Source: Pectobacterium peruviense
GTDB lineage: Bacteria; Pseudomonadota; Gammaproteobacteria; Enterobacterales; Enterobacteriaceae
Length of the DNA: 64,000 bases
Assembly: GCF_002847345.1 (NCBI RefSeq)
Contig: NZ_LXFV01000007.1
Coordinates: forward strand, 186,001-250,000
Direction: 5' to 3'
Each line of letters starts with the position of its first letter. Position 1 is the first letter of the stretch. Under the pieces are notes generated by a model. That model saw only the letters and a program-made list of their open reading frames with translations. It did not search any database and was not told the origin of the DNA. A program made the translations under genes and the position numbers. Of this stretch, positions 51,824 to 54,213 are shown piece after piece.

Positions 51824-52684
51824 ATGTTAGAACAACAAGCGACTATCGTTGACGTTAACGAATCCAACCTAAATCAGGTTTTGGAACACTCCGCGACACT
51901 GCCCGTCCTGTTTTACTTCTGGTCGGCGCGTAGCCAACACTGCCTGGAACTGGAGCCAGTGCTGGACAAGCTGGCGCAGGAATACGCAGGACAGTTTGTT
52001 CTGGCGAAGGTTGACTGTGATGCCGAGCAGCGCGTAGCCGCCCAGTTTGGCCTGCGCTCAATCCCAACCGTTTATCTGTTTAAAGACGGACAGCCGCTGG
52101 ATGGTTTTCAAGGCCCACAGCCGGAAGAAGCGGTTCGCGAATTGCTGAAACGCGCACTGCCGAAAGAAGAAGAGCTAAAAGTCGCTCAGGCACAGCAGCT
52201 GATTCAGGAAGACAAACTGCCGGAAGCAATGCAGTTGCTGAAAGACGCCTGGCAACTCAGCCAGCAGCGCAGCGACATCGGCCTGATGTTGGCGGAAGTA
52301 CAGATTCAAATTAAACGCAGTGAAGACGCCGAAGCCGTGTTGGCTACCATTCCTTTGCAAGATCAAGACACTCGCTATCACAGCCTCGTCGCTCAGATTG
52401 AGTTGCTGAAACAGGCAGCAGATACACCAGAAATTCAGCATTTGCAGCAGCAGTTGGACGCGGACCCGCAAAATGCAGATCTGGCAGTGCAGCTATCTCT
52501 GCAACTGCATCAGGTTGGTCGTAATGAAGAAGCGCTTGAACTGCTGATGGGATTCCTGAAGAAAGATCTGGCCGTCGCTAACGGCAGCGCACGTAAAACG
52601 CTAATGGACATCATGGCCGCCCTCGGCACCAGCGACGCCCTCGCCGCCCGCTACCGTCGTCAGCTTTATTCTTTGTTATATTAA
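51824..52684 (+). CDS. cnoX: Chaperedoxin CnoX (YbbN)
   Basis: CnoX combines holdase activity with protection of cysteines and hands clients to GroEL and DnaK. The 286-residue protein has an N-terminal thioredoxin fold (about 8-115) in which the usual CGPC is replaced by SQHC ([11 protein letters not shown]), as in E. coli, and a cis-proline segment RSIPTVYLF. Four TPR-like helical pairs follow and end in the conserved [13 protein letters not shown] tail. It lies 110 bases after ybbO with its own ribosome-binding site. Confidence 0.94.
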
Positions 52685-53019
52685 TTCACAGACTGTCTCC
52701 CCACCGGCGTAAAAAATTATGCTGAGGAGATAGCTGGCTTAGGATGAGCCACATGGATGTGGCGAAAGCTTGCGCCACGTCGGGAACGTGTCGCAAGCGG
52801 TCCGTTAAGCCTGATATCGACGAAGGCACCGCGTAGCGGCGTAATTCACGCCAAAAAGCCTGGGGTCACGGGGCGAGCGGCGCTTGAGACGCCCCGTGTC
52901 GGGCGCGTGCTACGAGGTAGCATGAAAATAACGGTACTATCGCGCACGACCCCCCCGAAAGCCGAATAGAAATGTGGCTAAGAGGCAGGATGAGGATCAG
53001 ATTCTCAATTCCCCGCTGA
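52685..53019. other. Intergenic region between convergent cnoX and yfaY
   Basis: The 335 bases are mostly the hairpin chain described separately. Outside it I see no gene, and no classical terminator with a T tract, so the hairpins may themselves stop transcription from either side. Confidence 0.55.
52735..52922. repeat. Chain of consecutive hairpins between cnoX and yfaY
   Basis: At least six inverted repeats follow one another: 52735-52751, 52749-52762 (CCACATGGATGTGG, a near-complete palindrome), 52757-52780 (GTGGCG/CGCCAC), 52838-52852 (GGCGT/ACGCC), 52867-52898 (CACGGGGCG/CGCCCCGTG) and 52908-52922 (TGCTAC/GTAGCA). A small one lies at 52829-52839. This GC-rich stretch sits between convergent genes. 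A 70-codon frame across it looks accidental. It may be a mosaic repeat or a structured RNA. Confidence 0.6.
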
Positions 53020-54213
53020 CTACAGCGTCTTCAACACCGAGATCCAGCCGTGGCCGCCGTAGACTGACCAGCCGTTTAGCCAGCGGCGCAGCATATTCAT
53101 CGCCAGCATCGCGACGACTTCCTGATGGGTTTTCAGACTGTAGCGCTGTACGTTGAACTGTATCGTTTGGGCGAAAGATCCTTCGGGCGTATGCAGAGCC
53201 AAGGAAAGCTCAGCATCGTCCCGACTACCGACCACCAGCGCTAACGATGCGCCTTGGCGCTCTGCCAGATGGCGTGCATAGTCAACTAGCCCAGATAGGC
53301 TGGTGTCTTGAGCGTTTGCCAACAATTCTCCGCCCGCCAGCGGAACGCTTGCAGACTGGAGCTGCCAGTTGAGCAACCCAGCAGTGAAATGTTCACTCAC
53401 CGCTAACGTCATATCACGTTCGGCAAGACGTCGAGCCAGCTGTGCAGGGAGCCCTTCCGTGCCTTCAAAGATGGCATTTTCCCCTGCGACGGTGCGCACG
53501 GTTTCCCACAGCTGCTCCATTTTTTCCTTCTGTGCCGCTGGGCCAGTCAATTTCAGCTCGATAATCGGCATAGAAGAACGGTAGCCCAACACCACGCCCG
53601 GCGGTAACGCCATGCCATCCAACTGGCTTGCCAGATCGCTCTCGGAGCGGCCAAAGGTGGTCAAACGCAGGCACAGCGGCGCGTCTGCGACAGCAAAACG
53701 CTCGCGCAAGCGCGGCATAATTTGCTGATCGACCATGACCTTGAATTCAGAGGGTACGCCCGGCGTAAAAAACATCAGGCATTTGTTCAATTGCAGCGCA
53801 AAACCACAGGCGGTGCCCACCGGGTTATCCACCATCTCAGCGCTGGCGGGGATTTGCGCCTGTTTGCGGTTACTGGGCGCCATCACTCTGCCGCGCTCGG
53901 CAAAGAAAGCCTCCATACGCGCCAGCCATTCGGCATGCTCAACCAGCCCTTCACCTGCTGCGGTGGCCGCAGCTAATGCGCTGAGATCGTCGCTGGTCGG
54001 CCCTAAGCCGCCATTCACAATCAGGATATCGGCTATCTGGCTACGCTGCGTTATCGCCGTCACCAGCGCATCGAGCTCGTCACCCACCGTCATCCGGCTG
54101 GTCATCGGTAGTCCCTGCTGAAACAGATAATCCGCCAGCCAGGCTGCATTGGTGTCAATAATCTGACCATGCAGTACTTCATCGCCGGTACATAACATCT
54201 CAACCCTAAGCAT
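53020..54213 (-). CDS. yfaY: CinA-like protein YfaY
   Basis: This is a CinA/MoCF-domain protein of 397 residues (E. coli YfaY about 400). The N-terminal molybdopterin-binding-like domain starts LRVEMLCTGDEVLHGQIIDTNAAWLADYLF and includes VNGGLGPTSDD; the C-terminal part resembles the NMN deamidase domain of CinA. The deamidase motif is altered, since VSEHFTAGLLNWQL replaces the usual ESCTGG-type sequence, so activity is doubtful. AGGAG precedes the ATG. Confidence 0.88.
   Translation of the reverse strand: MLRVEMLCTGDEVLHGQIIDTNAAWLADYLFQQGLPMTSRMTVGDELDALVTAITQRSQIADILIVNGGLGPTSDDLSALAAATAAGEGLVEHAEWLARMEAFFAERGRVMAPSNRKQAQIPASAEMVDNPVGTACGFALQLNKCLMFFTPGVPSEFKVMVDQQIMPRLRERFAVADAPLCLRLTTFGRSESDLASQLDGMALPPGVVLGYRSSMPIIELKLTGPAAQKEKMEQLWETVRTVAGENAIFEGTEGLPAQLARRLAERDMTLAVSEHFTAGLLNWQLQSASVPLAGGELLANAQDTSLSGLVDYARHLAERQGASLALVVGSRDDAELSLALHTPEGSFAQTIQFNVQRYSLKTHQEVVAMLAMNMLRRWLNGWSVYGGHGWISVLKTL

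Follow-up and report, generated by a model that had tools for sequence, protein, structure and literature searches.

In enterobacteria such as Pectobacterium, RsmA/CsrA is a master regulator that controls virulence and carbon use at the post-transcriptional level, and the genomes of enterobacteria carry intergenic palindromic repeats, among them the BIMEs, which are built of REP/PU units of about 35 nt. The antagonists of RsmA/CsrA named in the accessible parts of the literature are a few dedicated small RNAs (sRNAs). One described RNA family with a possible place in this network is TwoAYGGAY (Rfam RF01731), which in 2010 was rated a probable RNA that is unlikely to be cis-regulatory (accessible text of PMC2864571) and was proposed in 2014 to sequester CsrA (accessible text of PMC4333381); both the family and this proposed function are already known. 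A second described system is the YPAL/RU-2 repeat of Yersinia and Erwinia carotovora, which is dispersed, has target duplications and targets beside dyad symmetry, and is read along with the genes upstream of it (‘co-translated’ is the term used in the available part of the source, PMC2229807). Here, we describe a repeat of Pectobacterium peruviense at 52685-52988 of a 64-kb stretch of genomic DNA (64,000 nucleotides, called the window below), situated between cnoX and yfaY. The explanation that we favour as the probable one is a dispersed repeat of about 300 bp, resembling a miniature inverted-repeat transposable element (MITE), with an RNA core of about 245 nt that would be read through from upstream genes and would bind RsmA. 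That the repeat is a structured, dispersed element is practically certain.

A previous, sequence-only reading of the window had picked out 52735-52922 as a chain of adjoining inverted repeats, and had suggested for it a composite, BIME-like palindromic element, a structured RNA or a nucleoid- or gyrase-binding site, with no protein-coding explanation. The chain is present, including inverted repeats at 52768-52780/52786-52798 (13-nt arms, 92%) and 52867-52875/52890-52898 (9 bp, perfect) as well as others, and this 188-nt stretch folds better than its dinucleotide shuffles on both strands (z -3.0 on the plus strand, with 1/200 shuffles equally good; z -4.6 on the minus strand, with 0/200). The hairpins are thus real, but the span was drawn too short, since the core covers 52706-52950 and the end repeats reach to about 52988. 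The lack of a coding explanation also held up: a 70-aa open reading frame (ORF) at 52757-52969 crosses the stretch, but single-base indels between copies disrupt its frame, and we rejected it as a coding candidate. No support was found for homology of the hairpin stretch to a decayed gene. Searches against Rfam gave no match in the hairpin region at E up to 1, and none in the entire 64-kb window at gathering score, Ysr224 included.

Instead of a single copy, we found a multi-copy family. R1, a covariance model with 244 positions, is written for the minus strand and was built from 38 copies, the window copy among them. Its sole match within the window at E up to 1 is 52706-52950; in the P. peruviense genome it has 31 matches at an E threshold of 0.01, and 27 of these have E values smaller than 1e-50, confirming the dispersed palindromic element. 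A DNA search of the same genome yielded 45 matches at E up to 10, some of which are two pieces of a single copy, and 30 at E 0.0014 or better. Among 59 related genomes, this one included, 27 have DNA matches, comprising 25/25 Pectobacterium genomes (24/24 when only the further ones are counted) and 2/34 others, in which the matches are weak. Two more deeply searched Pectobacterium genomes hold 17 and 22 R1 matches at E up to 0.001.

The pairing of the core has been maintained through sequence change. In 23 aligned P. peruviense copies, 97.5% of the cells in 51 pairs are paired and 26 of these pairs have changed on both sides, with a covariation score of 0.357 against 0.151 in shuffles, none of 500 shuffles being as high on either measure. 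When slid by 1-3 columns the structure is less than 45% paired, a comparison that favours the unslid version because it was predicted from the same alignment. In other genera (25 copies from 17 of 18 fetched loci; L166, a partial match, was omitted), 91.4% of cells keep the R1 structure, 47/54 pairs have changed on both sides, and the covariation score is 0.588 against 0.175 in shuffles, slid controls being at most 40.1% paired; this alignment was fitted to R1 and therefore leans towards the R1 structure. In the 38 copies behind R1, the corresponding number is 28/54. These compensating changes bear out the earlier suggestion of a structured RNA. Its further suggestion, that two overlapping folds might switch, fared less well: both folds are present in the window copy, but only CCAC-AUGGAU-GUGG is conserved, and the rival GUGGCG/CGCCAC helix neither covaries above shuffles nor stays paired, one central pair being broken in 16/23 copies, so that a switching RNA is not supported. 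The parts of the element and its neighbours, in window coordinates, are these:

52685-52988, plus strand: whole repeat element, delimited by an alignment of 32 oriented copies with their flanks and of 25 orthologous intergenic regions.
52706-52950, plus strand: structured RNA core, located by cmsearch with R1 (257.9 bits, E 3.4e-78).
52715-52846, plus strand: long-range helix of AATTATGC (52715-52722) with GCGTAATT (52839-52846), closing the GGA-hairpin domain; 98.8% of cells paired, 4/7 pairs changed on both sides.
52748-52763, plus strand: hairpin A, GCCAC-AUGGAU-GUGGC, an ANGGAN hexaloop with GGA at 52755-52757; 3/5 stem pairs changed on both sides in the 23 own copies.
52768-52798, plus strand: hairpin B, a long stem with loop UCGGGAA and GGA at 52783-52785; 8/12 stem pairs changed on both sides in the 23 own copies.
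52867-52898, plus strand: third hairpin, CACGGGGCG...CGCCCCGUG; 6/9 pairs changed on both sides.
52899-52949, plus strand: 3' domain, in which a helix of UCGGGCGC (52899-52906) with GCGCACGA (52942-52949) encloses a variable hairpin; 98.8% of cells paired, just 1/7 pairs changed on both sides.
52964-52988, plus strand: right terminal inverted repeat, worn in the window copy; the consensus read inward is CTGTCTCTTAGTCACATTTTTATG.
51824-52684, plus strand, and 53020-54213, minus strand: the neighbours cnoX and yfaY (CinA-like), respectively, with names taken from the earlier reading.

The loop of hairpin B holds an extra module of several small hairpins, about 76 nt long, at the cnoX site of three Pectobacterium genomes (G002, G012, G019) and in three copies elsewhere in the P. 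peruviense genome (L106, L112, L115).

Both of the hairpins in the domain closed by the long-range helix expose GGA in their terminal loops, and they do so on one strand. Among the 23 aligned own copies, the loop of hairpin A contains GGA in 22 (a six-base ANGGAN loop in 17, AGGAC in 5, lost in 1), and that of hairpin B, mostly CGGGAR, contains it in 23/23. Minimum free energy (MFE) folds have at least two GGA hairpin loops in 20/27 own copies and 16/18 copies of other genera, compared to 31/270 and 14/180 of the respective mononucleotide shuffles, and no MFE fold of the opposite strand has any (0/27 and 0/18); the 27 own copies used here and in the following scan are the 31 matches minus four partial or weak ones. 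Scanning for hairpins with an A(N)GGAN loop on at least three stem pairs, we found one in 27/27 own copies (in L119 at another position) against 0/27 on the opposite strand, in 16/18 copies of other genera against 2/18, in 25/25 genomes at the cnoX site against 0, and in 6/6 copies from E. coli and Pantoea against 1/6. Across the 64-kb window such hairpins number 12 and 13 on its two strands.

This loop is of the kind to which the regulator is reported to bind. Selection experiments (systematic evolution of ligands by exponential enrichment, SELEX) gave CsrA the consensus RUACARGGAUGU, most ligands having a loop of six bases, and the CsrA homologue RsmE binds ANGGAN hexaloops (both from the accessible text of PMC7652899), while CsrA sites are generally paired, according to the available part of PMC4333381. 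The window hairpin CAC-AUGGAU-GUG fits the published CsrA/RsmA hexaloop motif, and the P. peruviense genome contains one CsrA-family gene. Judging by sequence, we consider binding of RsmA by the repeat to be probable on balance; a measurable sponge effect on RsmA would be a rather doubtful extension of this. Genes directly upstream of own copies L094, L109, L093, L118 and L106 include pfkA, phosphoenolpyruvate synthase, aceK, relA and a barA-like kinase, which have ties to the CsrA network.

The element very probably acts as a plus-strand RNA, the plus strand being the likelier one to form the structure. The consensus energy of the 38 copies is -69.2 on the plus strand compared to -62.6 on the minus strand, and in pairs common to both strand predictions, read on plus, G-U cells outnumber A-C cells by 60:31 (71 pairs) and 14:7 (44 pairs). 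We had considered A-C pairs resembling G-U as support for the minus strand and dropped this, since the columns in question are the AYGGAY loop and the consensus data favour plus.

In the alignment of 32 oriented copies with their flanks, inverted repeats stand at the ends of the copies. When up to 3 mismatches are allowed, the consensus of the right end has 91 matches in the 25 Pectobacterium genomes, compared to 0 for the same pattern read backwards; 30 of the 91 were fetched and 30/30 adjoin a core, 27 of them at about 15-17 nt from it. Small, with terminal inverted repeats and no transposase, the family consensus looks like a MITE from its sequence, the left end of the window copy being worn. 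The ends may resemble those of IS50/Tn5. By joining flanks we compared three own loci with relatives and found empty or near-empty sites at two of them: the mrcB site is empty in two genomes, with about 60 extra bases in one more, and the lysC site is empty or nearly so in four; at yhgN no empty site was recognised, the interval being shorter in some genomes. The empty mrcB sites carry an intrinsic terminator, in the loop of which the element is inserted, with a weak, imperfect duplication that amounts to just AATCT in the own copy; the empty lysC sites carry a strong hairpin with a short U-run. Copy L057 is flanked by a weak target duplication, AGTTAATCT/GGCTAATCT (7/9). At lysC, copies also share an outer end around a flipped interior, which resembles an in-place inversion between element ends, and opposite orientations at the same site recur across species, both in the cnoX-yfaY interval of the 25 genomes and elsewhere (lysC, L258 and L259 versus L101 and L260). 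More than 1 kb of extra sequence separates the flanks at one lysC site (G024:C1:568150-570480, L256) and one yhgN site (G012:C1:4383250-4385500, L257).

In Pectobacterium, the repeat lies on the 3' side of genes. With genes called by longest ORF, without annotation, the 30 own copies lie in 15 convergent, 15 co-directional and 0 divergent gaps; 20 of the 39 copies of two other Pectobacterium genomes, some at shared sites, lie in 5, 15 and 0, respectively, giving 0/50 divergent among the copies scored. Ten of 17 copies from other genera are in convergent and 5 in co-directional gaps.

The cnoX site is occupied in 25/25 Pectobacterium genomes, 20 copies being in the window’s orientation (one partly N-masked) and 5 inverted. 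Among 69 loci of other genera covering the cnoX region, Samsonia and Symbiopectobacterium have a copy, and the matches at two Brenneria loci are partial or weak (79 of 80 loci were scanned in all; L229 was omitted). The intrinsic terminator of cnoX, GGCCAGAACGTTGATTCTGGCCTTTTTA or a variant close to it, is kept in 23/25 Pectobacterium genomes and is missing from the other two, P. peruviense (window 52685-52705) and G019; the left edge of the window copy is uncertain because P. peruviense lost sequence there. In G024, a tandem array of the 8-mer ATCGGCTT stands between the cnoX terminator and the element.

Beyond Pectobacterium, an order-wide R1 search with strict filters matched 20/295 genomes at E up to 1e-4, in 12/99 genera with Pectobacterium included, and the best matches outside Pectobacterium span the model at E 1e-18 to 1e-30. 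One non-Pectobacterium copy used as a DNA query matches 5375/5426 complete E. coli genomes, at a median of 3 places each, and in 1907 of these genomes one of the places spans 80% or more of the query. R1 recognises 6/6 loci from E. coli (five) and Pantoea (one) at E 1.4e-22 or better; these are 6 of 7 fetched regions, L364 being omitted because it is the L363 site of a different strain. In one E. coli strain or another the copies neighbour lysO-aqpZ, yegH-asmA, the 3' side of proX, yohP-dusC and mmuM-tauA, and 58/60 of the matches listed have no annotation over them, the other 2 being marked ‘hypothetical protein’. The window copy itself, in a blastn search at E up to 1e-5, matched nothing in plasmids, phages or E. 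coli. Copies in other genera often form inverted pairs a few hundred bases apart (L159, L161, L162, L163, L155). Adjoining the copies at L127 and L129, in two genomes of another family, are weak CRISPR-repeat-like matches, evenly spaced at 60 nt and below the family cut-off, and close beside the element at two E. coli loci (L367:2257-2329, L363:2897-2951) are weak Rfam naRNA4 matches, also below cut-off.

To place the repeat relative to TwoAYGGAY, we scanned copies with that model. On 17 loci there are four matches above cut-off, at three loci of other genera (L132 twice, L126 and L127) and on the plus strand, and eight further matches below cut-off at E up to 1. Of 12 more loci from Pectobacterium and other genera, three have matches at E up to 10, all of them short of the cut-off. 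The best own copy, L011, reaches 42.7 bits against a gathering cut-off of 43 bits, and of the 25 Pectobacterium genomes 0 have a match above cut-off and 12 have one at E up to 0.01. As for the two AYGGAY terminal loops of that family, hairpin A of the window copy fits and hairpin B, with its different loop, departs from the pattern.

We propose that copies at gene 3' sides, two of them where relatives have a terminator-like hairpin, would be read through by transcription from the upstream gene and would so become a structured 3' untranslated region (UTR). Read-through is proposed because we found neither a promoter nor a terminator belonging to the repeat: a simple consensus scan of 52500-53200 gave no promoter-like or terminator-like site. 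A strict terminator scan, made without a positive control or a background rate, found none in the 170 nt before the core in 27/27 own copies, which agrees with read-through, and the same scan, again without a positive control, found none within the core of these copies. At cnoX in the window genome, the lost terminator would let the upstream mRNA run into the element. Hairpins A and B would then present two GGA loops to one RsmA/CsrA dimer, bound RsmA would alter the fate of the host mRNA, and about thirty copies together would take up a share of the RsmA pool.

A number of observations weigh against this proposal. Transcription is among its weak points: at the cnoX site, read-through is weakened by the 23 genomes that keep the cnoX terminator before the element, and co-directional copies show no clear orientation bias, with 10 sense against 5 antisense in the own genome and again 10 against 5 among the 20 copies of two other genomes, so that a third of co-directional copies would not be made in the GGA sense by the neighbouring gene. 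Two of the 17 copies from other genera do lie in divergent gaps, and avoidance there is therefore not absolute. Hairpin B is without an A two bases before the GGA in 18/23 own copies, and the stems exceed those of most SELEX ligands in length, a feature that may disfavour CsrA binding (accessible text of PMC7652899). Even with the threshold relaxed to E 10, the TwoAYGGAY model has no match on the window copy, and of the six E. coli and Pantoea loci three match, all below cut-off. Although 9/25 P. atrosepticum sRNA candidates are 235-246 nt long (Table 2 of PMC4710047, as far as its accessible text goes), glnA, taken as a proxy for the site of one of them, has no element in 25/25 genomes, leaving a link to these sRNAs not established. 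Finally, folding of the single sequence gives the stronger z-score on the minus strand, and Ysr224 lies opposite to the GGA strand in 4/4 YPAL-like matches (L370-L372 and L374; 13 of the 20 RU-2 loci were scanned).

The last two points would suit a structured RNA that serves some other protein or a ligand, or a minus-strand sRNA like Ysr224 in the YPAL-like repeats. Since consensus energy and the G-U versus A-C counts favour plus, and predicted minus-strand folds are without a GGA hairpin loop, we regard this as quite improbable. A fairly unlikely alternative is that the element is a plain MITE, its hairpins serving DNA transposition or a terminator-like function, its GGA loops a by-product and RsmA playing no role. 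Terminal repeats adjoining the core in all fetched loci, the terminator-like hairpins that relatives have in place of the element at mrcB and lysC, and the 3'-side placement in Pectobacterium are what such an element would lead one to expect, and pairing would be kept since unpaired arms would lose mobility or termination. However, the core stays paired in copies whose ends are unrecognisable, and no terminator-like site is found at the window copy or within the core of the 27 own copies. A role in DNA predicts no strand bias, whereas GGA lies in hairpin loops on one strand and is conserved there while the stem pairs vary. The same one-sided conservation of loop sequence, together with a unit of about 245 nt whose long-range nested helices are conserved across genera, makes a composite BIME-like element or a nucleoid- or gyrase-binding site scarcely credible, even though the repeat is dispersed, palindromic and intergenic. 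The preferred explanation is still a MITE-like repeat in 3' UTRs that would bind RsmA.

In the literature searched, with subscription journals mostly outside coverage, we found no description of the Pectobacterium element or of a dispersed repeat of CsrA sites, and no precedent for an element that joins a repeat, an RNA family and an RsmA site; a narrow search for ties to the older E. coli repeat classes RSA and Box C returned no paper. What is added here to the earlier account of this stretch is the GGA loops, the actual boundaries of the element and the breadth of its distribution. If the proposal is true, paired RsmA sites planted in 3' UTRs by a transposing element would constitute a new route of regulon rewiring.

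Compared to known systems, the repeat has GGA hairpins in common with the sponge RNAs CsrB/RsmB, in which several such hairpins bind CsrA/RsmA (accessible text of PMC7652899), but those are dedicated sRNAs with many sites, whereas the repeat has two candidate sites per copy in about thirty copies, and in the window no promoter- or terminator-like site; the whole-Rfam scan of the window gave no CsrB match, no search with the CsrB model alone having been made. Like ERIC, it is an intergenic palindromic repeat of enterobacteria (available part of PMC10969869). It differs from ERIC and from BIME/REP in size and fold, a separation by description and not by sequence. With YPAL/RU-2 it has in common a similar life-style, and two GGA hexaloop hairpins are seen in the printed RU-2 sequence; YPAL/RU-2 is, however, 168 bp long, and RU-2-like copies occupy other places of the P. 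peruviense genome. R1 has 0 matches at E up to 1 on the 20 loci fetched with RU-2, and YPAL/RU-2 is therefore not counted as a member of the family. Repeats like YPAL/RU-2 also occur in Pectobacterium, at G000:C16:111377-111534 and G000:C5:52019-52135.

TwoAYGGAY has the same two adjacent GGA-loop hairpins on the same strand, and the repeat is related to it, as a Pectobacterium-wide, mobile, multi-copy form; the Pectobacterium module differs in being part of a more extensive fold of 245 nt, which also includes a long-range helix and two additional domains on the 3' side, and in being dispersed with terminal repeats. It is conceivable, and we suggest it tentatively, that an Enterobacterales-wide mobile RNA element spread a two-hairpin RsmA/CsrA module to dozens of gene 3' ends per genome, forming a distributed, evolvable sponge and 3'-UTR regulon; the branches of such an element would be the Pectobacterium repeats, the unannotated copies in E. 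coli, TwoAYGGAY and possibly YPAL. If so, the orphan Rfam family TwoAYGGAY would gain a function.
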